Source: Alcanivorax sp. DG881
Lineage (GTDB): Bacteria; Pseudomonadota; Gammaproteobacteria; Pseudomonadales; Alcanivoracaceae
Direction of reading: 5' to 3'
Length of the DNA stretch: 44,093 nt
Assembly (NCBI RefSeq): GCF_000155615.1
Contig: NZ_DS989915.1
Location: forward strand, 975,695 to 1,019,787
Shown here: positions 7,866-18,483 of the stretch, one piece after another
How the letters are laid out: every line of letters starts with the position of its first letter
Position numbering within the stretch: position 1 is the stretch's first letter
Position numbers and translations under genes: made by a program
Notes under the pieces: model-generated
Told to the model about the DNA's origin: nothing
Databases searched by the model: none
What the model saw: the letters and a program-made list of their open reading frames with translations, nothing else

Positions 7866-8516
7866 ATGACGACGGAAAGCACCAGCAGATCTCGCAAGCC
7901 CAAACGGGGCCAGACCCGTGAAGCCCTGATGTCGGCCGCGCTGGAGCTGGTGGTTAAAAAGGCGCCCTTTTCCGCCCTTAGTCTGCGGGAAGTCACCAAG
8001 AAAGCGGGCGTGGTGCCCACAGCCTTCTATCGTCATTTCCCGGACATGAGCGCCCTGGGCCTCACGCTGCTGGACGAGTCGTTCCGTACCCTGCGTCAAA
8101 TGATGCGCCAGGTGCGTCAGCAGGAACTGCCCAACGAGCGCATGCTGCGTGGCTCCGTGGAGACCTACTTCACCTATGTGCGCAACAACCGGGCGCACTT
8201 TCTGTTCGTCTCCAAGGAACTGGCCAGCGGCACGCCCACCATGCGCAATGCCATCCGCCGTGAAATCCGCATGTTCACCAACGAACTGGCCATGGACATG
8301 GCGCGCTTCCCCTTCCTCAATCACATTAATGCTGAAGACCTGCAAATGATGGCCGGGCTGGTCGTCAACAACGTCACCGCGCTGACACAGGAAATGCTGG
8401 AACTGGAAGAAATTGATGAGACCGGCCAGCAAGAAGTGCTGATCACCGCGGAGAAACAACTGCGCCTGATTTACTTCGGCGTAGGCATGTGGCGCTCGGA
8501 CAAGAGCCATTCCTGA
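7866..8516 (+). CDS. desT: TetR-family regulator, DesT-like
   Basis: A 216-residue TetR repressor. The N-terminal helix-turn-helix (about residues 18-62) includes 'SLREVTKKAGVVPTAFYRHFPD'; the remainder is the ligand-binding helical domain with 'YFTYVRNNRAHFLFVSKEL'. It is divergent from desC, as PA4890 desT is in P. aeruginosa. There DesT senses the ratio of unsaturated to saturated acyl-CoA and represses the desaturase operon. The start ATG has GGAGG at good spacing, and the gene carries a basic N-terminal arm. FabR is a related alternative, but the neighbourhood favours DesT. The function is strongly suggested by context plus operators. Confidence 0.87.
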   Translation: MTTESTSRSRKPKRGQTREALMSAALELVVKKAPFSALSLREVTKKAGVVPTAFYRHFPDMSALGLTLLDESFRTLRQMMRQVRQQELPNERMLRGSVETYFTYVRNNRAHFLFVSKELASGTPTMRNAIRREIRMFTNELAMDMARFPFLNHINAEDLQMMAGLVVNNVTALTQEMLELEEIDETGQQEVLITAEKQLRLIYFGVGMWRSDKSHS

Positions 8517-8676
8517 ACACACTTCACACTTTACGACCTTGCGCCGCGCCCCTGTGCTTAACTCACCAGACCGCCTGTCTATACGGCCAATAGCGACTCG
8601 CCTGCCCTGTTCTATACTCTTTTGCATTGCCACCGTTGCCTACGCTGCAACGCAATCAACGGGAAAGGATTGAGTA

Positions 8677-9546
8677 ATGAGTGAGGTCAAATTCCGCGAA
8701 CTGCGTAATTCACCACCCATGGTGATCAACTTCGCCAAGGCCGTATTGCGCGCCACCGTAAAGCCCGGCAGCAACCCCACCTTGCCGGACGTGGGCCTGC
8801 GACTGAATGACGTCTCCCTCGATGAAAAGCATCTGACTGCTTACCGGAAGGTGTGCGGGTTTGCCGCCGACGGCAAACTGCCCGTGACCTATCCGCACAT
8901 GCACGCTTTCCCGCTGCATATGGCTCTGATTCTTACCGACGGTTTTCCGTTCCCCGCCATGGGCCTGGTACATGTACGCAACAGCATCACCCAGTACCGC
9001 CCCATTGCAGAACGCGAGCAACTGAACGTGAAGTGCTTTCTGGGCAACCTGCAGAAAGTCGACAAGGGTTACGAATTTTCCATCTTCACCAGCGTCAGCA
9101 CCGGTGGCGAGCGAGTCTGGGAAAGTGAGTCCGTGAATTTCTTCCGCAGCGGCGGCGGTAGCAGCAGCAAGAAGAAAGACGCACCCAAGCCGCAACCGGC
9201 CACCGACACGGTGGAGTGGAAAGTGCCGGGGGATATCGGCCGCCGCTACGGCGCCGTCTCCGGTGACCGCAACCCGATTCATCTATACCCGCTGTCCGCC
9301 AAGCTGTTCGGCTTCAAACGCCAGATCGCCCACGGCATGTGGTCCAAGGCCCGCTGCCTGGCCGAACTGCAGAACCAGCTGCCGGAAGACGCGTTCACCG
9401 TGGACGTGCAGTTCAAATTGCCCATGTTCGTGCCCGCCACCGTGAAGTTCGAGAACAAGCCGGCCGACGGCGGCAGCGATTTCCGTCTGCTCGCCAAGGA
9501 CGGGATCAAACCCCACCTGGCCGGCCAGATCCGTCCGGCGGAGTAA
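8677..9546 (+). CDS. MaoC-family double-hotdog hydratase/dehydratase
   Basis: A 289-residue protein with two hotdog-fold halves joined by a low-complexity Gly/Ser/Lys/Pro linker at about 158-177. The second half carries the hydratase signature, with 'YGAVSGDRNPIHL' containing Asp197 and His202 and then 'IAHGMW'. This is the catalytic pair that hydrates trans-2-enoyl thioesters. The first half lacks an obvious second active site. It probably acts on acyl-CoA or acyl-ACP intermediates in beta-oxidation or fatty-acid/PHA metabolism. It lies 160 bases after desT on the same strand, and a GGAAAGGA-like site precedes the ATG. A -10-like TATACT lies at 8613-8618 but without a good -35. The exact substrate is unknown. 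Confidence 0.85.
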   Translation: MSEVKFRELRNSPPMVINFAKAVLRATVKPGSNPTLPDVGLRLNDVSLDEKHLTAYRKVCGFAADGKLPVTYPHMHAFPLHMALILTDGFPFPAMGLVHVRNSITQYRPIAEREQLNVKCFLGNLQKVDKGYEFSIFTSVSTGGERVWESESVNFFRSGGGSSSKKKDAPKPQPATDTVEWKVPGDIGRRYGAVSGDRNPIHLYPLSAKLFGFKRQIAHGMWSKARCLAELQNQLPEDAFTVDVQFKLPMFVPATVKFENKPADGGSDFRLLAKDGIKPHLAGQIRPAE

Positions 9547-9560
9547 TAGCAGCCGCAACA

Positions 9561-9710
9561 GGCATCACGCTGCACGCAACAACACGTCCGGCTTTCGAGC
9601 AGGACGAAACGTCAGAGGCCGCGCCCACAGTCTGGTCGCGGCCTCTGACGTTTCAGGCTTTCCAGCGTCGGCCCGTGTTGTTGCGTGCTGCCTGTAGCGT
9701 GCTGCATGCC
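9561..9710. repeat. Nested inverted-repeat element upstream of selU
   Basis: The space between the MaoC gene and selU is almost entirely one nested palindrome. The inner arms of 18 perfect bases are 9606-9623 and 9637-9654 with a 13-base loop. The outer arms of 15 perfect bases are 9572-9586 and 9674-9688. Still further out, GGCATCACGCT (9561-9571) pairs imperfectly with 9695-9710. Related pieces occur at 20512-20577 and 32071-32250. There is no T-tract, so it is more likely a dispersed mobile palindrome than a simple terminator. Confidence 0.85.
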
Positions 9711-9731
9711 ACTGCACTAAACTCGCTCCCC

Positions 9732-10820
9732 ATGCGAGACGATACCCGTGATTACCTTTCCCTGTTTCTGAATGACACGCCCCTGCTGGACGTGCGCGCC
9801 CCCGTGGAATTCGCCAAGGGCGCCTTTCCCGGTGCGGCCAATATTTCCCTGATCAACGATGACGAACGTCACCAGATTGGCATCTGCTACAAGCAGCAGG
9901 GCCAGCAGGCGGCAATTGATCTGGGCAACAAGCTGGTCAGCGGCGAGGAACGGGAACAGCGTATGCGGGCCTGGCAGCAGTGGTGGCAGGCCAACCCCAA
10001 CGGCTACCTGTATTGCTTCCGTGGCGGGCTGCGCAGCCAGACCACCCAGGCCTGGCTACGCGAAGCAGGCATCGATGCACCACTGATCACTGGTGGTTAC
10101 AAGGCGCTGCGCCGATTTCTGATTGATGAAATGGAAGCCTGTATCGCCAGCCTGCCACTGGAAGTGCTATGCGGCCGTACCGGCTGTGCAAAAACACGCG
10201 TGATTGAACAACAGGCCAACGCCATCGATCTGGAAGGGCTGGCCCACCACCGCGGCTCCTCCTTCGGCCGACGCCCCGGCGGCCAACCCGGCCAAATTGA
10301 TTTTGAAAACAGCCTGGCCATCGCCCTGATAAAACAACGTGCCGCCCAGCCTGCCCGCATTCTGGTGGAAGACGAAAGCAAGCTGATCGGGCGCTGCCAT
10401 CTGCCTTTTTCCCTGCAAGACCAGATCAAGGCACAGCCACGCATCGTCATTGAGGAATCCCTGGACGCCCGCGTACAGGTCACCCTGGAAGATTACGTGA
10501 TCGGGCCGTTACAGGAATATGCCCGCTACTTCGGTGAGCAGAATGCCCTCAAGCAGCTTGGCGATGAACTGCTGGCAGCCATGGATCGCATTCGCCGCCG
10601 CCTGGGTGGCATTCGCCATCAACAGCTTCGCCAGCAACTCCAGGAAGCCCTGGCCGTACAAACCGCCTGCGGCGATACCGAGTTGCATCGCGAATGGATT
10701 CACAGCCTGCTCGCCGATTATTACGACCCCATGTACGACTACATGCTGTCGCGCCGCGAAGGCACCATTGTCTTCCAGGGCACCCGCGCCGAAGTCAGCG
10801 ATTTCCTCAACAACCGCTAA
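9732..10820 (+). CDS. selU: tRNA 2-selenouridine synthase (YbbB)
   Basis: A 362-residue enzyme that uses selenophosphate to convert (geranylated) 2-thiouridine at the wobble position of certain tRNAs to 2-selenouridine. The N-terminal rhodanese domain has catalytic Cys95 in 'YLYCFRGGLRS'. A P-loop domain follows with 'GRTGCAKT' at 148-155, where the usual second Gly is replaced by Ala. The start at 9732 gives an N-terminus that aligns with E. coli YbbB, although no Shine-Dalgarno is evident. The open frame continues upstream to 9339 through the palindromic repeat and the MaoC gene, but that is a shadow. It is the first gene of a block with a selenium-type ABC transporter and selD. Assignment is secure. 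Confidence 0.95.
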   Translation: MRDDTRDYLSLFLNDTPLLDVRAPVEFAKGAFPGAANISLINDDERHQIGICYKQQGQQAAIDLGNKLVSGEEREQRMRAWQQWWQANPNGYLYCFRGGLRSQTTQAWLREAGIDAPLITGGYKALRRFLIDEMEACIASLPLEVLCGRTGCAKTRVIEQQANAIDLEGLAHHRGSSFGRRPGGQPGQIDFENSLAIALIKQRAAQPARILVEDESKLIGRCHLPFSLQDQIKAQPRIVIEESLDARVQVTLEDYVIGPLQEYARYFGEQNALKQLGDELLAAMDRIRRRLGGIRHQQLRQQLQEALAVQTACGDTELHREWIHSLLADYYDPMYDYMLSRREGTIVFQGTRAEVSDFLNNR

Positions 10821-10941
10821 CGCAAAACCCCTCGCAAGCCGTTATACTGCTGCCACGACTGCGTATGGCCGAACCCGCAATCGTATCCGTGCGTTTTCCC
10901 GCATAAAGTTCGGTAAGCCTCCCTATTGAACGGAGACAACA

Positions 10942-11808
10942 ATGCGTTTGAAATTTCTGGCTGCACTGGCTGCTGCCCTGCTGCTCTCTGCCTGTAATGA
11001 CCCCAAAACCGATACCTTCACCTTTACGGCGATTCCGGATCAGGATGAATCCCAGCTGGTAAAACGGTTCGGTACCATCGCCGCTTACCTGGAAGAACAG
11101 TTGGGCGTGCCCGTGCAATACGTGCCGGTGAAATCCTACGCTGCCGCAGTGACTGCCTTCCGCAACGATGAAGTGCAAATGGCCTGGTTCGGCGGTCTGT
11201 CCGGCGTACAGGCGCGACGTCTTGTTCCCGGTTCCCAGGCCATCGCCCAGGGCCAGGAAGACACCGCGTTCAAATCCTATTTCATTGCCAACAGCAGCAC
11301 CGGGCTTGAGCCCGTCGACACGCTGGGCGACGACTTCATTGCACAGCCGTCATTCACCTTCGGCTCCAAAGGCAGCACCTCCGGCCGCCTGATGCCGGAA
11401 TTCTATCTGCGCGATACCTTCAACAAGTCGCCGGAAGACCTGTTCGAGAAAGTCGGTTTCTCCGGCGACCACAGCCGCACCATCGCCCTGGTACAAAGCG
11501 GTGCCTACGCCACTGGCGCGGTAAATTTCAAAGTCTGGGAGCGCGAGCTGTCGGAAGGCAAAATCGACACCAGCAAGGTCAGCGTGATCTGGGAAACCCC
11601 CACCTATCCAGACTACCACTGGACCGTGCGCGGCGATCTGGATGAGCGCTTCGGCGAAGGCTTCAGCCAGCGCGTTACCGAAACCCTGCTGTCCATCGAC
11701 GATCCGGCACTGCTGCAGGCTTTCCCCCGGGAAAAATTTATCCCGGCCTCCAATGCGGACTATGCCCCCATCGAGGACACCGCCAGCGCCATCGGCCTGT
11801 TGGACTAA
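10942..11808 (+). CDS. PhnD-like substrate-binding lipoprotein, putative selenate/selenite ABC transporter
   Basis: A 288-residue periplasmic binding protein. The signal peptide ends with lipobox 'LLSAC' (Cys18), so it should be lipid-anchored. The body matches the PhnD/phosphonate-binding superfamily: 'LVKRFGTIAAYLEEQLGVPVQ', 'MAWFGGLSGVQARR', and 'FGSKGSTSGRLMPEFYL'. Databases hold a subfamily of such proteins labelled 'putative selenate ABC transporter' because it occurs beside selD and selU, exactly as here. A good GGAG site precedes the ATG, and the ATPase gene starts 21 bases after its stop. The bound ligand (selenate, selenite or another oxyanion) is an inference from context; phosphonate or phosphite remains possible. 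Confidence 0.85.
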   Translation: MRLKFLAALAAALLLSACNDPKTDTFTFTAIPDQDESQLVKRFGTIAAYLEEQLGVPVQYVPVKSYAAAVTAFRNDEVQMAWFGGLSGVQARRLVPGSQAIAQGQEDTAFKSYFIANSSTGLEPVDTLGDDFIAQPSFTFGSKGSTSGRLMPEFYLRDTFNKSPEDLFEKVGFSGDHSRTIALVQSGAYATGAVNFKVWERELSEGKIDTSKVSVIWETPTYPDYHWTVRGDLDERFGEGFSQRVTETLLSIDDPALLQAFPREKFIPASNADYAPIEDTASAIGLLD

Positions 11809-11829
11809 CGGCCACAGGCAAGTTCCGGC

Positions 11830-12486
11830 GTGTTCCATTTCCAGCAGGCCCGGTTGGGGCATGGCGATCAGGTTGTCTTCGACAGCCTGACGCTGACCAT
11901 TGAGCAGGGCGAAAAAGTCGCCCTGCTCGGCCCCTCCGGCGCCGGCAAGTCCACCCTTCTCAATGCCCTGCGCAGCCAGCAGGAAAGCGTCTGTGCCTGG
12001 TGCCCCCAGGCGGGCGCCCTGGTGCCCATGCTAAGCGTGTTCCACAACATCTACATGGGCGCCCTGTCGCGCAACCGCACCGTCACCAATCTGCGCAACC
12101 TGCTTGCTCCCAGTCGACACGAGCGCGAACAGGTGGGCGCTTTGGCGGCCGACCTGTCGCTTCACGACAAGCTGTTCACCAGCGTCGATCAGCTCTCCGG
12201 CGGCCAGGCGCAACGCACCGCACTGGGCCGGGCCCTTTACACGCAACGCCCGGTTCTGCTCGCCGACGAACCCGTTTCCAGTCTGGACGAACACCAGGGC
12301 CTTGCCTTGCTCACCCTGTCACTGGCTCGCCACCACAGTGCCGTGATTGCCCTGCATGATCAGGCGTTGGCACTGGCCTGCAGCGACCGGATCATCGGCC
12401 TGAACCAGGGCCAAATCGTCCTCGACGCCGCCACCCGGTCGCTGTCCCTCAGCGATCTGGATACCTTGTATCAGGACGATGCGTAG
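11830..12486 (+). CDS. ABC transporter ATPase, PhnC-like (putative selenium importer)
   Basis: A 218-residue nucleotide-binding subunit starting at GTG 11830. All motifs are visible: Walker A GPSGAGKST (34-42), signature LSGGQ (122-126), Walker B LLADE (143-147), D-loop SSLD, and the switch His in 'ALHD'. It powers import by the binding protein and permease encoded on either side. Its stop codon overlaps the permease start by 8 bases, indicating translational coupling. It is somewhat shorter than typical PhnC ATPases, mainly between Walker A and the signature motif. Assignment to selenium-oxyanion uptake rests on neighbourhood. Confidence 0.88.
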   Translation: MFHFQQARLGHGDQVVFDSLTLTIEQGEKVALLGPSGAGKSTLLNALRSQQESVCAWCPQAGALVPMLSVFHNIYMGALSRNRTVTNLRNLLAPSRHEREQVGALAADLSLHDKLFTSVDQLSGGQAQRTALGRALYTQRPVLLADEPVSSLDEHQGLALLTLSLARHHSAVIALHDQALALACSDRIIGLNQGQIVLDAATRSLSLSDLDTLYQDDA

Positions 12487-14023
12487 CAGTGAACGCCCTA
12501 CCATGCCTCCCGCCAGCCCACCGCTGAACACCACAGCCAGTCGCTGGCGGCGCACCACCGGCGGCCTCGCCCTGGCCGGCCTGGTGGCACTGTTGCTGGC
12601 CGACATGGAGATCGCCCGCTCCAGTCCTGGCCAGGAACTGCTGCGCATGGCCAAGGGGTTTATGACCCCGGATTTTTTCGCCACCGAGCAGCTGGGCCAG
12701 GCGCTGGCCAATACCCTGGCCTTTGCCTGGCAAGGCACCGCGCTGGCTGCCCTGTTCGGTTTTTTGATGGCAGTCTGCTGGTCGTCGCGGGCGGTACGCA
12801 GTTTTGCCGCCAGCATCCGTGCCGTCCACGAGCTGTTCTGGGGCCTGCTGCTACTACAGGTTGCCGGCCTGAGCACGCTTACAGGGGTACTGGCCATCGC
12901 CATTCCCTATGCGGGTATCTTTGCCAAGGTATTCGGCGAATTTCTGGAGGAATCGGACCCAGCCCCCGCTCATTCCCTGCCCGCCAGCACCTCCGCCGTC
13001 AGCCGCTTTTTCTTCGCCCGGCTGCCACTGGTCTGGCAGGCGTTCAAGGCCTACGGCAGTTACCGGCTGGAATGCGCCTTGCGCGCCTCCGCCATTCTCG
13101 GCTTTATCGGTTTGCCTACCCTGGGCTTCCATCTGGAAACCGCCTTTCGTGAAGGGGTCTACGATCAGGGAGCGGCTTTGCTGTACCTGTTTTTCGCGCT
13201 GATTTTCACCCTGCGCTGGTGGCTGCGCCCGGCGCTGATTCCCCTGTATTTGATCGCCGCCGTGGTGTGGGCGCCCCCGGTCTTCACCGGCAACCTGTCC
13301 ACCCTGGTGCGTTTTGTCACCGTGGATCTGGTGCCTGCCCCCCTGCGTCACGGCGGTGGCCTGCTGGAACTGTGGCAGTGGTTTGCCATGCTCTGGCAGC
13401 AACAACTGTGGCCCGGCCTGTGGCAGACCAGCGTATTGGGCCTGGCCGCGCTACTGCTCACCGGCATTCTGGCGCTGGTATTGTTTCCCCTTACCTCACC
13501 GTTATTCGGTAACCGGGTCAGCCGTATGCTGGGCCATGGCCTGCTGGTGGTGCTGCGCACCACACCGGAGTTTTTTCTCGCCTTCTTTTTCCTGATCCTG
13601 CTCGGCCCCTCCATGTTGCCCGGCATTTTTGCGCTTGCCCTGCATACCGGCGCCATCGTCGCCCACCTGACGGGCCGTTTCAGTGAAACCCTGCGCCTGC
13701 GGGCGGACGCGCCGACCGGGATCAACCGCTACGCCTGGGAGGTCTTGCCACGCATCAGCCCGAACCTGCTCGCTTTCCTGCTCTATCGCTGGGAGGTGAT
13801 CATGCGCGAAACGGCGGTACTGGGGATTCTTGGCATTCACACCCTGGGTTTCTATATTGATTCCAGCGTGGCGGAATTCCGCTTTGACCGAACCGCCCTG
13901 TTGATCCTGGCCACGGTGTTGCTCAATCTGGGAGTGGATGCCCTGTCACGCACGCTAAGACAGCGCCTGAGGCTGCAACCGGGCCACGGTGTTTCAGCAA
14001 GCAAGGCCCCGGCAAGCGGTTGA
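12479..14023 (+). CDS. Fused two-domain ABC permease, PhnE-like (putative selenium importer)
   Basis: A 514-residue membrane protein with about ten to twelve hydrophobic segments. It consists of two PhnE-type permease halves in tandem. Half one (about 45-250) contains 'SYRLECALRASAILGFIGLPTLGF' and half two (about 310-495) contains the matching 'YRWEVIMRETAVLGILGIHTLGF'. Each carries the EAA-like loop that docks on the ATPase. A single polypeptide would therefore supply both membrane halves that phosphonate-type importers usually get from a homodimer or two subunits. The first ~35 residues are polar, and an internal ATG (residue 9) could be the true start. The gene overlaps the ATPase gene and precedes the phzF-like gene by 37 bases. 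Confidence 0.88.
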   Translation: MRSSERPTMPPASPPLNTTASRWRRTTGGLALAGLVALLLADMEIARSSPGQELLRMAKGFMTPDFFATEQLGQALANTLAFAWQGTALAALFGFLMAVCWSSRAVRSFAASIRAVHELFWGLLLLQVAGLSTLTGVLAIAIPYAGIFAKVFGEFLEESDPAPAHSLPASTSAVSRFFFARLPLVWQAFKAYGSYRLECALRASAILGFIGLPTLGFHLETAFREGVYDQGAALLYLFFALIFTLRWWLRPALIPLYLIAAVVWAPPVFTGNLSTLVRFVTVDLVPAPLRHGGGLLELWQWFAMLWQQQLWPGLWQTSVLGLAALLLTGILALVLFPLTSPLFGNRVSRMLGHGLLVVLRTTPEFFLAFFFLILLGPSMLPGIFALALHTGAIVAHLTGRFSETLRLRADAPTGINRYAWEVLPRISPNLLAFLLYRWEVIMRETAVLGILGIHTLGFYIDSSVAEFRFDRTALLILATVLLNLGVDALSRTLRQRLRLQPGHGVSASKAPASG

Positions 14024-14060
14024 CCGACACCGCCAGAAGAACGCAAACACGAGTCGCACT

Positions 14061-14834
14061 ATGAAACTGTACCAAGTGGACGCCTTTACCGACGCCCTGT
14101 TTGCCGGCAACCCGGCCGCGGTGGTGCCGCTGACACACTGGCTGGATGACGCCCTGCTGCAGAACATCGCACTGGAAAACAATCTCTCGGAAACCGCTTT
14201 TCTGGTCCCCGACGATCAAGGCTACGCGTTGCGCTGGTTTACCCCTCAGGTGGAAGTCGACCTGTGCGGCCACGCCACCCTGGCCACCGCCTGGGTGGTG
14301 TTCAATGCGCTGGGCTTTCCCGGTGAGCGAGTGCGTTTTTCCACCGCCTCCGGTCCCTTGTTCGTGACTTGCAGCGGGCAGACATTAAGCCTGGATTTTC
14401 CGTCACGGCCGGCCCACGCGCTCACTGACATCACCCCGTTTTCCCGGGCGCTGGATTTGCCCATTCGCGAGGTGCTACAAGCCCGGGACACCCTGATCAT
14501 CGTGGACAGCGCCGATCAGGTGCGCAATTTTCAACCCGACTTCACCGCCATCGCGGCGCTGGATACCTTCGCGGTAATGATTTCCGCGCCCGGCGACGAC
14601 TGTGATTTTGTCAGCCGCTTTTTTGCCCCGGCCAAAGGCGTTCCGGAAGACCCGGTCACCGGCTCGGCCCATTGCACCCTGGTGCCTTACTGGGCGGACA
14701 AACTCGGCAAAAACACGCTCCATGCCCGCCAGCTCTCTGCCCGTGGCGGTGAACTGCACTGCCAGCTGAAAGGCGACCGCGTCACCCTCAGCGGCACCGC
14801 CCGCTGCTATCTGCAAGGTGACCTGCAACTGTGA
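14061..14834 (+). CDS. PhzF/YddE-family isomerase-like protein
   Basis: A 257-residue protein with the two-lobed PhzF fold. Diagnostic motifs are present: 'YQVDAFTDALFAGNPAAVV' at the N-terminus, 'ENNLSETAFL' with the conserved catalytic Glu, 'VDLCGHATLATAW', and 'GVPEDPVTGSAHC'. PhzF itself isomerises a phenazine precursor, but most relatives act elsewhere and are uncharacterised. The ATG at 14061 gives the conserved start; the frame opens earlier at 13989 without support. It lies between the transporter and selD, and its stop TGA overlaps the selD start GTG. The operon therefore ties it to selenium metabolism rather than phenazines. The actual reaction is unknown. Confidence 0.88.
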   Translation: MKLYQVDAFTDALFAGNPAAVVPLTHWLDDALLQNIALENNLSETAFLVPDDQGYALRWFTPQVEVDLCGHATLATAWVVFNALGFPGERVRFSTASGPLFVTCSGQTLSLDFPSRPAHALTDITPFSRALDLPIREVLQARDTLIIVDSADQVRNFQPDFTAIAALDTFAVMISAPGDDCDFVSRFFAPAKGVPEDPVTGSAHCTLVPYWADKLGKNTLHARQLSARGGELHCQLKGDRVTLSGTARCYLQGDLQL

Positions 14835-17047
14835 TAAGCCCTTCCGCTCAATACGACCTGGTCTTTGTCGGCGCCGGCCACAGCCATGCGCTGGCCCTGC
14901 GCATGCTGGCCATGAAACCGATTCCCGGCGTACGCCTGACCCTGGTGTCCCCGGACAGCCTGAGCGCCTATTCCGGCATGTTGCCGGGGCTGATCGCCGG
15001 CCACTACACGCTGGATGACACCCATGTGGATGTGTACCGGTTGTGCCAGGCCAGCGGCTGCCGGTTTGTTCAGGCCAGCGTCACACAGCTTGATCCACAG
15101 AAACGGCAATTACAGCTCAGCGATGGCAGCCAGCTGGCCTACGACTGGCTGAGCCTGGACGTGGGCGCCACGCCGGATCTCTCGCCCATCGGCAACGATC
15201 ACGACAGCGTTGTGCCGGTCAAACCGGTGGCCAGCTTTTATACCCGCTGGCAACAACTCTGCCGCGACGCCGGCGGGCAAACGCCCTCACTGGCGGTGGT
15301 CGGCGCCGGTGCCGGCGGTACCGAAATGGCACTGGCCATGGCCCACCATTTTCAGAACCGCCAGCAACCGGCAGAGATTCAACTGATCACCGGAGGGGAA
15401 TTGCTGCCCGGCTTTCCCGCCAGCGTGCGCGAGAAGATGCGCAAGCGGCTGCAAGCCCATAACGTCGCCCTGCATACCCACAATCGCGTTCACTGTGATG
15501 CACAACAGCAACTGCAGATGGGAGATCAGCCGCTAACCGCCCAATGGGTGCTCTGGTGCACGGGGGTGCGCGGCCTGCCGATACTGGAAGACAGCGGGCT
15601 GGAGTGCGACCAGCGCGGTTTTGTACGCGTCACGGAAAGCCTGCAGACGCTCTCCGATGCACGCATTTTTGCCACCGGTGACTGCGCCGCCTTTCCCACA
15701 TCCCTGCCCAAGGCCGGGGTCTACGCGGTTCGTCAGGCGCGCACACTGGCCGACAACCTGCGCGCGGCCATTCAAGGGCAACCGCTGGTTGCCTATCGCC
15801 CGCAATCCCGATTCCTGTCGCTGCTATCCGCCGGCGGCAAAGATGCCATTGCCAGTCGTGGCGGCAGCCTGTCTGTGGCCGGGCACTGGGTATGGCGCTG
15901 GAAGGATCATATCGACCGGGCCTTCATGGCCAAGTTCGATCAACACCTGCCCGCCATGCCCACCGCCCCCGCGGACCCCGACGCCCTGCACTGCGCCGGC
16001 TGCGGCGCCAAGGTCGGCAGCGACGCCCTCCATGAAGCACTGGCAGGCCTTCAGCCAGTCATTAATCCGGGGATTGAAGCCGGTGTAGACGCCGCCGATG
16101 ATGCCGCCATCATCGATTGGCCCGCCGGGCAGCGGCTGGTCCAGAGCCTGGATTTCTTTCCCGCCTTTATCGATGAGCCCTACCTGTTCGGGCGCATTGC
16201 CGCCCTGCACAGCCTCAGCGACCTGTACGCCATGAACGCCCGGCCCCACTCAGCCCTGGCCAACATTACCCTGCCCTGGCACCACCCGCGCCTGCAGGGC
16301 CGTGACCTGCAACGGATGATGGCCGGAGCCGTCCGGGAACTGAACGCAGCCGGCTGCACCCTGGTCGGTGGCCACACCATCGAAGGCCCACAGATGGCCG
16401 CGGGTTTCACCGTCAACGGCCAGGCGGATCCGGCACAGCTCTGGCACAAACGCGGCGCCCGCGACGGCGACCGGCTGATCCTCACCAAGCCATTGGGTAG
16501 CGGCGTGCAATTGGCGGCCCTGATGCAGGCGAACAGCAGCAATGGTGCCGCATTCCACGGCCCCTGGCTGGACACAACGCTGCGCCACCTGCTGACCAGC
16601 AACCATATGGCGCAACGGGCCCTGCAGGATGTCCCCGTGAATGCCTGCACCGATATCACCGGCTTCGGGCTGCTCGGCCATCTCTACGAAATCAGCCAGC
16701 AAAGTGGCGTTACCCTGTCGGTGGATTGCCACAAGGTACCGCTGCTGCCTGGCACGCTGTCGCTGATTCAACAAGGTGTGGCCAGCACCCTCAGCGATGC
16801 CAACCGACAGATACTGGTGCATTGCCAACAGCCGCAGCCCGTGGACGACGCCCTGCTTACCGCCCTGTGCGACCCGCAAACCGCCGGGGGGCTAGTGTTC
16901 TGTCTGCCCGCCGACTATGCCGGGCAGGCACTGCAACATCTTGATCGTGAAGGCATTGCTGCCACCGACATCGGTAAAGTCCTTGTAAAAGATCGCCCGG
17001 ATCACGCAGCGATCCTGTTGAATAGCGGTCACACTGGTAGCGTATAA
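14831..17047 (+). CDS. selD: FAD/NAD(P) oxidoreductase fused to selenophosphate synthetase
   Basis: A 738-residue fusion starting at GTG 14831, which overlaps the upstream stop by 4 bases. Residues 1 to about 375 form a pyridine-nucleotide-disulfide-type oxidoreductase: 'DLVFVGAGHSHA' for FAD, 'LAVVGAGAGGTEMA' for NAD(P), and 'IFATGDCA'. Residues about 385-738 are SelD, making selenophosphate from ATP and selenide. 'CAGCGAK' contains Cys391 and Lys394, matching E. coli Cys17 and Lys20, while the position of E. coli Cys19 is Ala. Other conserved SelD parts are 'DAADDAAI', 'LVGGHTIEGP', 'DITGFGLLGH' and 'DPQTAGGLV'. This fused form is known in several bacteria. The N-terminal domain may supply reduced selenium, which is inference. 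Confidence 0.94.
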   Translation: MISPSAQYDLVFVGAGHSHALALRMLAMKPIPGVRLTLVSPDSLSAYSGMLPGLIAGHYTLDDTHVDVYRLCQASGCRFVQASVTQLDPQKRQLQLSDGSQLAYDWLSLDVGATPDLSPIGNDHDSVVPVKPVASFYTRWQQLCRDAGGQTPSLAVVGAGAGGTEMALAMAHHFQNRQQPAEIQLITGGELLPGFPASVREKMRKRLQAHNVALHTHNRVHCDAQQQLQMGDQPLTAQWVLWCTGVRGLPILEDSGLECDQRGFVRVTESLQTLSDARIFATGDCAAFPTSLPKAGVYAVRQARTLADNLRAAIQGQPLVAYRPQSRFLSLLSAGGKDAIASRGGSLSVAGHWVWRWKDHIDRAFMAKFDQHLPAMPTAPADPDALHCAGCGAKVGSDALHEALAGLQPVINPGIEAGVDAADDAAIIDWPAGQRLVQSLDFFPAFIDEPYLFGRIAALHSLSDLYAMNARPHSALANITLPWHHPRLQGRDLQRMMAGAVRELNAAGCTLVGGHTIEGPQMAAGFTVNGQADPAQLWHKRGARDGDRLILTKPLGSGVQLAALMQANSSNGAAFHGPWLDTTLRHLLTSNHMAQRALQDVPVNACTDITGFGLLGHLYEISQQSGVTLSVDCHKVPLLPGTLSLIQQGVASTLSDANRQILVHCQQPQPVDDALLTALCDPQTAGGLVFCLPADYAGQALQHLDREGIAATDIGKVLVKDRPDHAAILLNSGHTGSV

Positions 17048-17074
17048 CCCTTCAAGAACACAGGAGAATGGTTC

Positions 17075-17470
17075 ATGACCACGTCAAAACGCGTTACCGG
17101 TATTTTCAGTGCCTTTGTATTGCTGTTTATGCAAGTGCTGATGGTTCCCGCCGCACAAGCCGCCATGATTGGTAATGACACCGTGATTCAGCAACAGGAT
17201 CGCGCGGCCATGAAGCAGCAAGTCATGCAGCTGATGGATCATAAAGTGGCCGCTCAGGCGCTAAGCGAATACGGCGTAAACCAGGAGCAGGTCAGTCAGC
17301 GACTGGACCGCCTCACCGATGCCGAGCTGCAGCAGCTGGCTCAGAAATCCGAAGAGCTGCCAGCCGGTCAGGGCGTACTGGGCGTGGTACTGGCTATCAT
17401 CCTGGTACTGGTGATTCTGGATCTGCTCGGCGCTACCGATGTCTTCCCGGTGATTGACCCGGTCAATTAA
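17075..17470 (+). CDS. PA2779-family small exported membrane protein
   Basis: A 131-residue protein with an N-terminal signal peptide ending 'AAQAA', a polar helical middle rich in Gln ('AAMKQQVMQLMDHKVAAQAL', then 'LTDAELQQLAQ'), and a C-terminal hydrophobic segment 'GVLGVVLAIILVLVILDLLG'. That pattern matches the small family typified by P. aeruginosa PA2779, regularly encoded beside a PA2778-type C39-like peptidase, which follows here with a TAATG stop/start overlap. AGGAGA provides a good ribosome-binding site. The pair is probably co-translated and works together at the membrane. The function is unknown; a substrate or partner of the peptidase is a reasonable guess. Confidence 0.82.
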   Translation: MTTSKRVTGIFSAFVLLFMQVLMVPAAQAAMIGNDTVIQQQDRAAMKQQVMQLMDHKVAAQALSEYGVNQEQVSQRLDRLTDAELQQLAQKSEELPAGQGVLGVVLAIILVLVILDLLGATDVFPVIDPVN

Positions 17471-18483
17471 TGGTGACGGCATTGCGCGGCATGTTTTCCG
17501 GAAAACCGGTTGCCGCCCTACTGGCAACCGCACTGCTAACGCTGGGCGGTTGCCAGAGTTTTCCCCCACCGCAAAGCGCCAGCGTGCACACCGATCAACA
17601 GGTGGTGGTGCCCTTTGTCCCCCAGGACGCTTATCAATGCGGCCCAGCCGCCCTGGCGATGATGCTGCAGTGGGCAGGCAAGGAAGTCAGCGCCGACGCA
17701 CTGGTGGACGAAGTCTGGTTGCCGGAGCGCAAAGGGTCGCTGGGCATTGAGCTGCGGGCCGCAGCCCGCAGCCGCGGCTTGATGGCCTATCCGGTGGAAT
17801 CCGCCGAGGCGTTGTTTCAGGAATTACAGGCCAACCGCCCAGTGCTGGTGATGCAGAACCTGGCGTTGCCAAGCTGGCCAAAGTGGCACTTCGCCGTGGT
17901 AACCGGTTATCGGGATGAGGGCGATACCGTGGTGTTGCACAGCGGCACCACCCAGAGCGATAGCAGCCACTGGAATCGCTTTATTCGCACCTGGGCCAGG
18001 GCCGATCAGTGGGGATTCACGCTGGTGGAAGCCGGCCAGTTGCCCGCCAGCGCCGAGCCTGATGCGCTGTTCCGGGCCATCTCGCCGCTGCCCAATAGCG
18101 CCGCCTTCTGGCCCGCTGCCGTGGACGCCTTCCCGCAAAGCGGGCAGCTGTGGTTTGGCTATGGCAATGCCTTGTGGGCGCAGGGCAAGCAGCAAGAAGC
18201 GCGGGCTGCGTTTGAACAAGCCGTGCGCCATGAGCCGGAACTGGCCGCCGCCTGGAACAACCTGGCCTATGCCCAAAAGGCAGCGGGTGACAGCAAACAG
18301 GCCCGGCAGAGTATTTGCCAGGCCTTGTCGGTGGCACCGGATGATAGCGAGATTCAGGACAGCGCCCGCGAACTGGGCGCTCAGTACTGCGACGTATCGC
18401 CGGCGCCTTCCGCATCCTCAGCGCCCTCTGCTCCGGCTTCCTCCTCTTCAGCCGCAAGCTCAGGGTGCTGCGCCACCAACTGA
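17470..18483 (+). CDS. PA2778-family C39-like cysteine peptidase with TPR repeats
   Basis: A 337-residue predicted lipoprotein with lipobox 'LTLGGC' (Cys28). A C39-like papain-fold domain covers about 45-190, with catalytic Cys57 in 'YQCGPAAL' and His140 in 'KWHFAVVTGY'. Two TPR-like helical repeats follow at about 225-300 ('LWFGYGNALWAQGKQQEARAAF' region and 'AWNNLAYAQKAAGD'). It starts by a TAATG overlap with the PA2779-type gene. The last ~30 residues are a Ser/Ala/Pro low-complexity tail that overlaps, by 103 bases, the end of a convergent minus-strand gene. C39 domains in exporters cut double-Gly leaders; here the target is unknown and a tethered periplasmic protease role is inferred. 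Confidence 0.85.
   Translation: MVTALRGMFSGKPVAALLATALLTLGGCQSFPPPQSASVHTDQQVVVPFVPQDAYQCGPAALAMMLQWAGKEVSADALVDEVWLPERKGSLGIELRAAARSRGLMAYPVESAEALFQELQANRPVLVMQNLALPSWPKWHFAVVTGYRDEGDTVVLHSGTTQSDSSHWNRFIRTWARADQWGFTLVEAGQLPASAEPDALFRAISPLPNSAAFWPAAVDAFPQSGQLWFGYGNALWAQGKQQEARAAFEQAVRHEPELAAAWNNLAYAQKAAGDSKQARQSICQALSVAPDDSEIQDSARELGAQYCDVSPAPSASSAPSAPASSSSAASSGCCATN

Follow-up and report, generated by a model that had tools for sequence, protein, structure and literature searches.

According to passages of reviews from 2022 and 2026, a specific high-affinity selenium transporter has not been identified in prokaryotes, and in excerpts of a 2024 study on Methanococcus none of five transporters tested was specific for a selenium species, with PhnD unmentioned there. 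The substrate-binding protein (SBP) of a selenate ATP-binding cassette (ABC) transporter appears in print, in the passages at hand, once in an exoproteome listing and once in a guess of selenite export that was made from its name; neither tests function. Here we describe an operon at positions 9732-17047 of a 44,093-nucleotide stretch of Alcanivorax sp. DG881 (contig NZ_DS989915.1; the whole stretch is called the window below) that encodes a tRNA selenouridine synthase, an ABC importer whose SBP belongs to the NCBIfam family TIGR04553, and a SelD fusion. We consider it probable that the operon supplies selenium for the selenouridine of tRNA, with hydrogen selenite as the most likely ligand of the SBP. 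From genome comparison, the TIGR04553 transporter is a strong candidate for a high-affinity selenium importer of prokaryotes in several phyla. A study by Peng in 2016 (PMC5029168) similarly describes an ABC transporter-related ATPase near an orphan selD in at least three organisms, although its passages name no binding protein, family or substrate. A literature search for the accession TIGR04553 returned no paper, and in the open-licence literature (subscription journals and preprints lie mostly outside it) no paper was found that puts TIGR04553 to the test or connects PhnD1 with selenium.

PhnD1, the binding protein of the picocyanobacterial transporter PhnD1CE, is the described relative to which this SBP is compared below; statements on it come from parts of PMC10284923 and PMC5700983. 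It has been published as a binder of phosphite and phosphate, and all 97 picocyanobacterial genomes in one database are reported to encode it; phosphite and phosphonate use is lacking in most of these strains (PMC10284923). Two Synechococcus strains did not grow on phosphite or methylphosphonate as sole phosphorus source, the phnD1C1E1 genes were reported as uninduced by phosphorus starvation, and the conserved neighbour reported for them is tesA (PMC10284923). The word stem "selen" is absent from the main text, supplements aside, of three PhnD1 papers. Prochlorococcus and Synechococcus are described, in part of PMC1273633, as having SelD with an NADH-dehydrogenase-like extension together with ybbB. 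What is said here on the PhnD1 neighbours, and on selD and mnmH in cyanobacteria, is taken from papers, not from a genome search of our own.

The operon comprises six genes, all on the + strand, located by open reading frame coordinates and family profile matches in agreement with the earlier note on this DNA:

9732 to 10820, + strand: mnmH/selU, tRNA 2-selenouridine synthase, 362 amino acids (NF008751, 522 bits, cut-off 361; TIGR03167, 344 bits, cut-off 219.75)
10942 to 11808, + strand: SBP of the ABC importer, 288 amino acids (TIGR04553, 388.3 bits, cut-off 250)
11830 to 12486, + strand: ATPase of the ABC transporter, 218 amino acids, GTG start (PF00005, 81 bits)
12479 to 14023, + strand: permease with two PhnE-like halves in one chain, 514 amino acids (TIGR01097 twice, 197 bits in total, under the cut-off of 216.7)
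14061 to 14834, + strand: short PhzF-family protein, apparently accessory (PF02567, 183 bits; TIGR00654, 125 bits, cut-off 76)
14831 to 17047, + strand: fusion of an NADH-dehydrogenase-like (pyridine-nucleotide) oxidoreductase with SelD, 738 amino acids, GTG start (TIGR03169 and TIGR00476)

The window SBP belongs to TIGR04553 as an ordinary member; NCBIfam names this family a "putative selenate" binding protein. The selenium role that the earlier note had assigned to the transporter from context is thus already known as a label, and the window holds a plain member of a predicted family; the role itself held up. Judged across genomes, the comparative evidence for it is much stronger than the NCBI label alone. 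In a sample of 114 genomes of the order, TIGR04553 was found over cut-off in 53, selD in 77 and mnmH in 78. Both selD and mnmH were present in 53 of the 53 carriers versus 23 of the 61 non-carriers (Fisher 1.5e-14, kinship ignored), and outside the window's own family in all carriers (18/18). The distance from the SBP gene to selD or mnmH was at most 9 kb in 49 of the 53 carriers, and in 14 of the 18 outside the window's family; under random placement the chance of such proximity is about 1% per genome. As a control we used superfamily paralogues that score below the cut-off. These occurred in 24 genomes of the order and were not enriched with the selenium genes (selD plus mnmH in 18/24 versus 58/90, p 0.47). 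A phylum sample of 299 genomes contained 24 SBP carriers, and selD was found in 22 of these versus 62 of the 275 others (p 1.4e-11, kinship ignored); the carriers had mnmH in 21 cases and selA in 13. Finally, genome contigs were searched with the window SBP, resulting in loci L001-L026, of which L014-L026 are 13 non-Alcanivorax loci in 13 genomes. Twelve of these genomes have selD (SAR324, KSB1, Verrucomicrobiota and Desulfobulbaceae among them) and nine have mnmH. The carriers in each of the three sets thus support a selenium role. The nearest named locus is L001, from Alcanivorax sp. NORP25, whose SBP is 97% identical to that of the window.

Four of the 12 selD-positive genomes behind L014-L026 have an in-frame TGA in selD. 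These genes (L126, L127, L128 and L129, one TGA each) come from SBP-carrying Verrucomicrobiota, SAR324 and Desulfobulbaceae genomes and probably encode SelD selenoproteins. The family was also found on plasmids, in 16 records; fifteen (H1-H15) come from Paracoccus and a few other genera and are annotated as putative selenate SBPs. In the three plasmid copies that were examined, TRAP or tripartite carboxylate transporters lie near the SBP.

For the host genome (G000, 3.80 Mb), the earlier note's reading of the operon as a selenouridine set stands. The note had found no selA or selB in the window, and this extends to the whole genome, in which there was no selA match (0/1), selB gave sub-cut-off matches only (best 186 of 242 bits) and senB was not found over cut-off (best 32 of 300 bits). 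ARAGORN detected no tRNA genes at all in the window; a tRNA-Sec search of the remaining genome was not made. The Sec-decoding trait (selA plus selB) was therefore not found in the host genome, and MnmH is the sole use of selenophosphate found there (the YqeB/YqeC labile selenium cofactor route was not searched). For the transporter in general, the selenouridine reading is too narrow. One carrier, G373, has selD and selA and no mnmH, and the transporter therefore appears to accompany selenium use in general and not selenouridine alone. In this genome (L075/L080) two tandem family SBP genes precede a single ATPase and permease, with a stand-alone selD next to them. We also considered selenouridine as the only partner, since mnmH was found in 21 of the 22 carriers versus 48 of the 62 other genomes with selD in the phylum sample, and whether fusion of SelD marks genomes with the transporter, which 44 of 59 genomes with fused SelD carry versus 9 of 18 with stand-alone SelD only; neither link is claimed (p 0.10 and 0.08). 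The same goes for selA, which is marginal among the selD genomes of the phylum sample (13/22 carriers versus 21/62, p 0.046). In two loci of the window's own family, L094 and L095 (G036 and G025), mnmH adjoins the oxidoreductase-SelD fusion and the transporter is missing. Five genomes of one genus (G025, G029, G036, G038 and G043) retain mnmH and a SelD fusion while having no TIGR04553 SBP over cut-off.

The transporter family also occurs with genes of the SenABC selenoneine pathway. SenB is the selenosugar synthase of selenoneine biosynthesis, and a SenB match is divergent to and directly beside the SBP gene in the Marinobacter loci L014, L015, L017 and L019 as well as in G064 and G278. SenB scored over its cut-off of 300 bits beside the SBP in L014 (416 bits) and L081 (390 bits); the other such loci were found by tblastn. 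In L086 (G304) the gene order is SenA-like, SelD, SBP, ATPase, two separate permeases, EgtD and SenB, with 379 bits for the SenA-like protein (under the cut-off of 420), 341 for EgtD (cut-off 291) and 374 for SenB (cut-off 300). In L085 (G131), EgtD, SenA, SenB and SelD were each matched by tblastn at no more than 10 kb from the transporter. These clusters suggest that the transporter goes with SelD into selenouridine, selenosugar and selenoneine settings, although the host genome of the window, unlike them, has no SenB over cut-off.

By sequence, the window SBP is closest to two solved structures, Synechococcus PhnD1 (7s6g, E 3e-72) and Prochlorococcus PhnD1 (5lq5, 2e-63), with 41-46% identity to PhnD1, and PtxB (3e-29) comes far behind; a further PhnD1 structure is 5lq8. 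The PhnD1 chain fragments of 7s6g and 5lq5 score 334.7 and 295.8 bits on TIGR04553, over its cut-off, whereas two PtxB chains score 166 and 152 bits and fall under it. An AlphaFold model of the window SBP (pLDDT 91) was compared with solved structures by Foldseek, whose E-values rank the PhnD1 structures first. The TM-scores are moderate, at 0.65-0.68 for PhnD1; those for PtxB are as high or, in the unbound form, a little higher (0.69-0.71), and some unbound PtxB and HtxB chains reach up to 0.74. The matches include AioX (listed with arsenite) and ArrX (listed with arsenate), so the fold accepts other metalloid oxyanions. We then built a tree of 55 sequences comprising the family, PhnD1, three PtxB chains and 12 sub-cut-off paralogues. 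A 100/99 branch separates the family and PhnD1 from the three PtxB chains and 11 of the 12 paralogues; the remaining paralogue, the long-branch L096, falls inside the family side. PhnD1 and the group of the window are sisters (100/98), and the selenoneine- and Pseudomonas-type group (93/79 as a group) lies outside the window group plus PhnD1. With a root placed among the paralogues, PhnD1 would be bracketed by selenium-linked lineages. No relative turned up in viral contigs, searched with alignment A1 and the PhnD1 proteins of Synechococcus and Prochlorococcus, or in a phage tblastn.

The family also shares its binding pocket with PhnD1. The phosphate contacts of 7s6g are Y44, S124, T125, S126, H156, D203 and Y204 (PMC10284923). 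At these positions, 65 distinct family sequences have Tyr, Ser, Thr, Ser and His without exception, Asp in 58 and Asn in 7, and the capping Tyr in 63; the Phe that is paired with the Asp in PhnD1 is likewise present in 63 of the 65. The window SBP has Phe and Asp, and its listed ligand residues are identical to those of PhnD1. PtxB (5o2j, 5jvb and 5lv1) shares the fold, the STS motif, the His and the capping Tyr, but all three chains have Tyr and Gln in place of Phe and Asp/Asn; this ligand set (Tyr100 and a Gln beside the capping Tyr) is lacking in the window SBP. By family membership, pocket residues and sister position, PhnD1CE of picocyanobacteria thus appears to belong to the same family as the transporter of the window. 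One genome of the window's genus (G008) encodes, in addition to its TIGR04553 SBP, a protein placed with Pseudomonas PtxB in the tree (100/97; L097, G008:C1:645500-648200), which suggests that phosphite-type and selenium-type binding proteins can coexist in one genome.

Hydrogen selenite carries a proton and a lone pair besides its three oxygens, whereas selenate is tetrahedral and unprotonated near neutral pH. Prochlorococcus PhnD1 forms hydrogen bonds to all three of the ligand oxygens, a tyrosine cap opposite the fourth position favours hydrogen there over larger groups, and the Asp points to a monoanion that carries a proton (PMC5700983). A PhnD1-type pocket therefore suits an anion with three oxygens and a proton, of which hydrogen selenite is one, and because of these three features selenite is predicted over selenate. 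The same protein binds phosphite at 0.051 uM and phosphate at 182 uM, with phosphate more than 1000-fold weaker by thermophoresis (PMC5700983) and about 450-fold weaker by isothermal titration calorimetry (PMC10284923). In the supply line that we propose, the SBP would capture selenium in the periplasm as an inorganic oxyanion, with hydrogen selenite the likeliest, and the ATPase and fused permease would import it. The oxyanion would be reduced to selenide in the cell, by a route that, like the job of the oxidoreductase domain, we infer; the SelD domain would then make selenophosphate, and MnmH would use it for 2-selenouridine in tRNA.

Several observations weigh against this proposal, the first of which concern the selenium species. 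Synechococcus PhnD1 favours phosphite over phosphate only about 6- to 52-fold, it binds phosphate at 7.4-88 uM, and 7s6g was solved with this tetrahedral ligand bound (PMC10284923). Because this protein discriminates less against phosphate than Prochlorococcus PhnD1 does, the case for selenite over selenate is weaker. The transporter may instead import selenate, as the NCBIfam name says, or another selenium species; the co-occurrence and neighbourhood data are blind to the species. We regard this as unlikely, given the three-oxygen, Tyr-capped Prochlorococcus pocket for a protonated monoanion, which holds tetrahedral phosphate far more weakly than phosphite, and the conservation of the Phe, Asp-or-Asn and Tyr set across TIGR04553.

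Other observations concern the element itself. In the open-licence literature, as far as its passages go, no selenium-binding measurement was found for TIGR04553 or PhnD1. A preference for phosphite, which the earlier note regarded as telling against a selenium role, is partly borne out for the relative PhnD1, which binds phosphite at 0.05 uM (Prochlorococcus) to 4.3 uM as well as phosphate and mostly methylphosphonate, and whose crystals hold such ligands (PMC10284923, PMC5700983). A "phosphonate/selenate SBP" of P. putida, whose TIGR04553 membership is unchecked, rises threefold on phosphate depletion (from 0.309 to 0.959% of the exoproteome, in the passage available), while PstS1 rises eightfold on the same depletion. 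Since the window transporter belongs to the PhnD/C/E superfamily, it could be a phosphite, phosphate or phosphonate importer that lies beside selenium genes by accident. This reading is very improbable in our view. The SBP tracks selD and mnmH whereas the sub-cut-off paralogues do not, the family has mostly Phe and Asp/Asn where PtxB has Tyr and Gln, and the window SBP scores 137.9 bits on the PhnD model TIGR03431, under its cut-off of 261. No ptxD is named among the ten genes scanned at 7866-18480, where no dedicated ptxD search was made. The growth and expression results for picocyanobacteria given above also speak against phosphorus uptake.

A last group of counter-examples comes from the genomes. 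Four of the 53 carriers of the order sample (G065, G081, G082 and G092) have the SBP away from both selD and mnmH. The two carriers of the phylum sample that have no selD are G248 and G365. The complete genome G248 has an SBP gene (L078, G248:C1:22001-42000, at 10001-10792 on the minus strand) and no selD, mnmH or selA over threshold; no ATPase or permease was found beside this SBP. In G365, which is 78% complete, the transporter is present and no selD was found, and G412 (L025) is without selD and mnmH. For three annotated plasmid copies from Rhodobacterales, the incomplete gene table lists no selenium gene within 7 kb; their chromosomes were not searched.

With these points weighed, we still favour hydrogen selenite import by the window transporter. 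Extending this to the relative, we see about an even chance that PhnD1CE is the picocyanobacterial selenite importer that feeds the SelD fusion and the selenouridine synthase, and that its crystals already show the pocket of the long-missing bacterial selenium transporter of high affinity. If PhnD1 is as close to the family in function as in sequence, the most abundant phototrophs of the ocean would have a transporter that has been assigned to the wrong element. The PhnD1 link makes the question decidable, because purified and crystallised proteins for it exist already.

The PhzF-like protein, which the earlier note counted in the operon, is not conserved with the transporter. Of L001-L009, 8 loci cover the site, and all of them have the gene. 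In L010-L013 it is absent and the SelD fusion comes straight after the permease; we therefore treat PhzF as what appears to be an Alcanivorax extra, accessory and no conserved part of the system. By tblastn it was not found in the longer loci outside Alcanivoracaceae, many of the fetched loci being only 3.8 kb and uninformative. Its position between the permease and selD, with a 4-nt overlap with selD, could be taken to mean a genuine step of the selenium pathway, but with these absences we give that idea hardly any credence.

The N-terminus of the SBP has a lipobox-like signal (LLLSAC). The top NCBIfam match of the ATPase is PhnC (TIGR02315, 130 bits, under the cut-off of 266). As the earlier note proposed, the permease is fused: its two TIGR01097 stretches are an internal duplication whose halves align to each other (E 6e-12), and a Pfam search of it at 0.01 gave no match. 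Residues 9-369 of the last protein match TIGR03169 (463 bits, cut-off 310) and residues 386-693 match TIGR00476 (293 bits, cut-off 125). The model TIGR04369, for an oxidoreductase/SelD-related fusion that is not SelD, gave 502 bits, under its cut-off of 700. The SelD domain keeps both the Cys and the Lys of the motif of E. coli SelD (3u0o), which we take to have catalytic roles, and the top matches of the oxidoreductase domain are NDH-2-like chains and FSP1. The two overlaps noted earlier were also found, that of phzF and selD and that of ATPase and permease, which is 8 nt with ATG 12479 as start and would be abolished by the in-frame ATG 12503. The intergenic gaps are 121 nt (mnmH-SBP), 21 nt (SBP-ATPase) and 37 nt (permease-phzF). 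An Rfam search of the window for regulatory RNA gave no match. Directly after the SelD fusion, at 17075-18483, lie genes for a PA2779-family protein and a PA2778-family C39 peptidase with TPR repeats; in L094 a protein that by eye resembles the one 3' of the window fusion also follows SelD.

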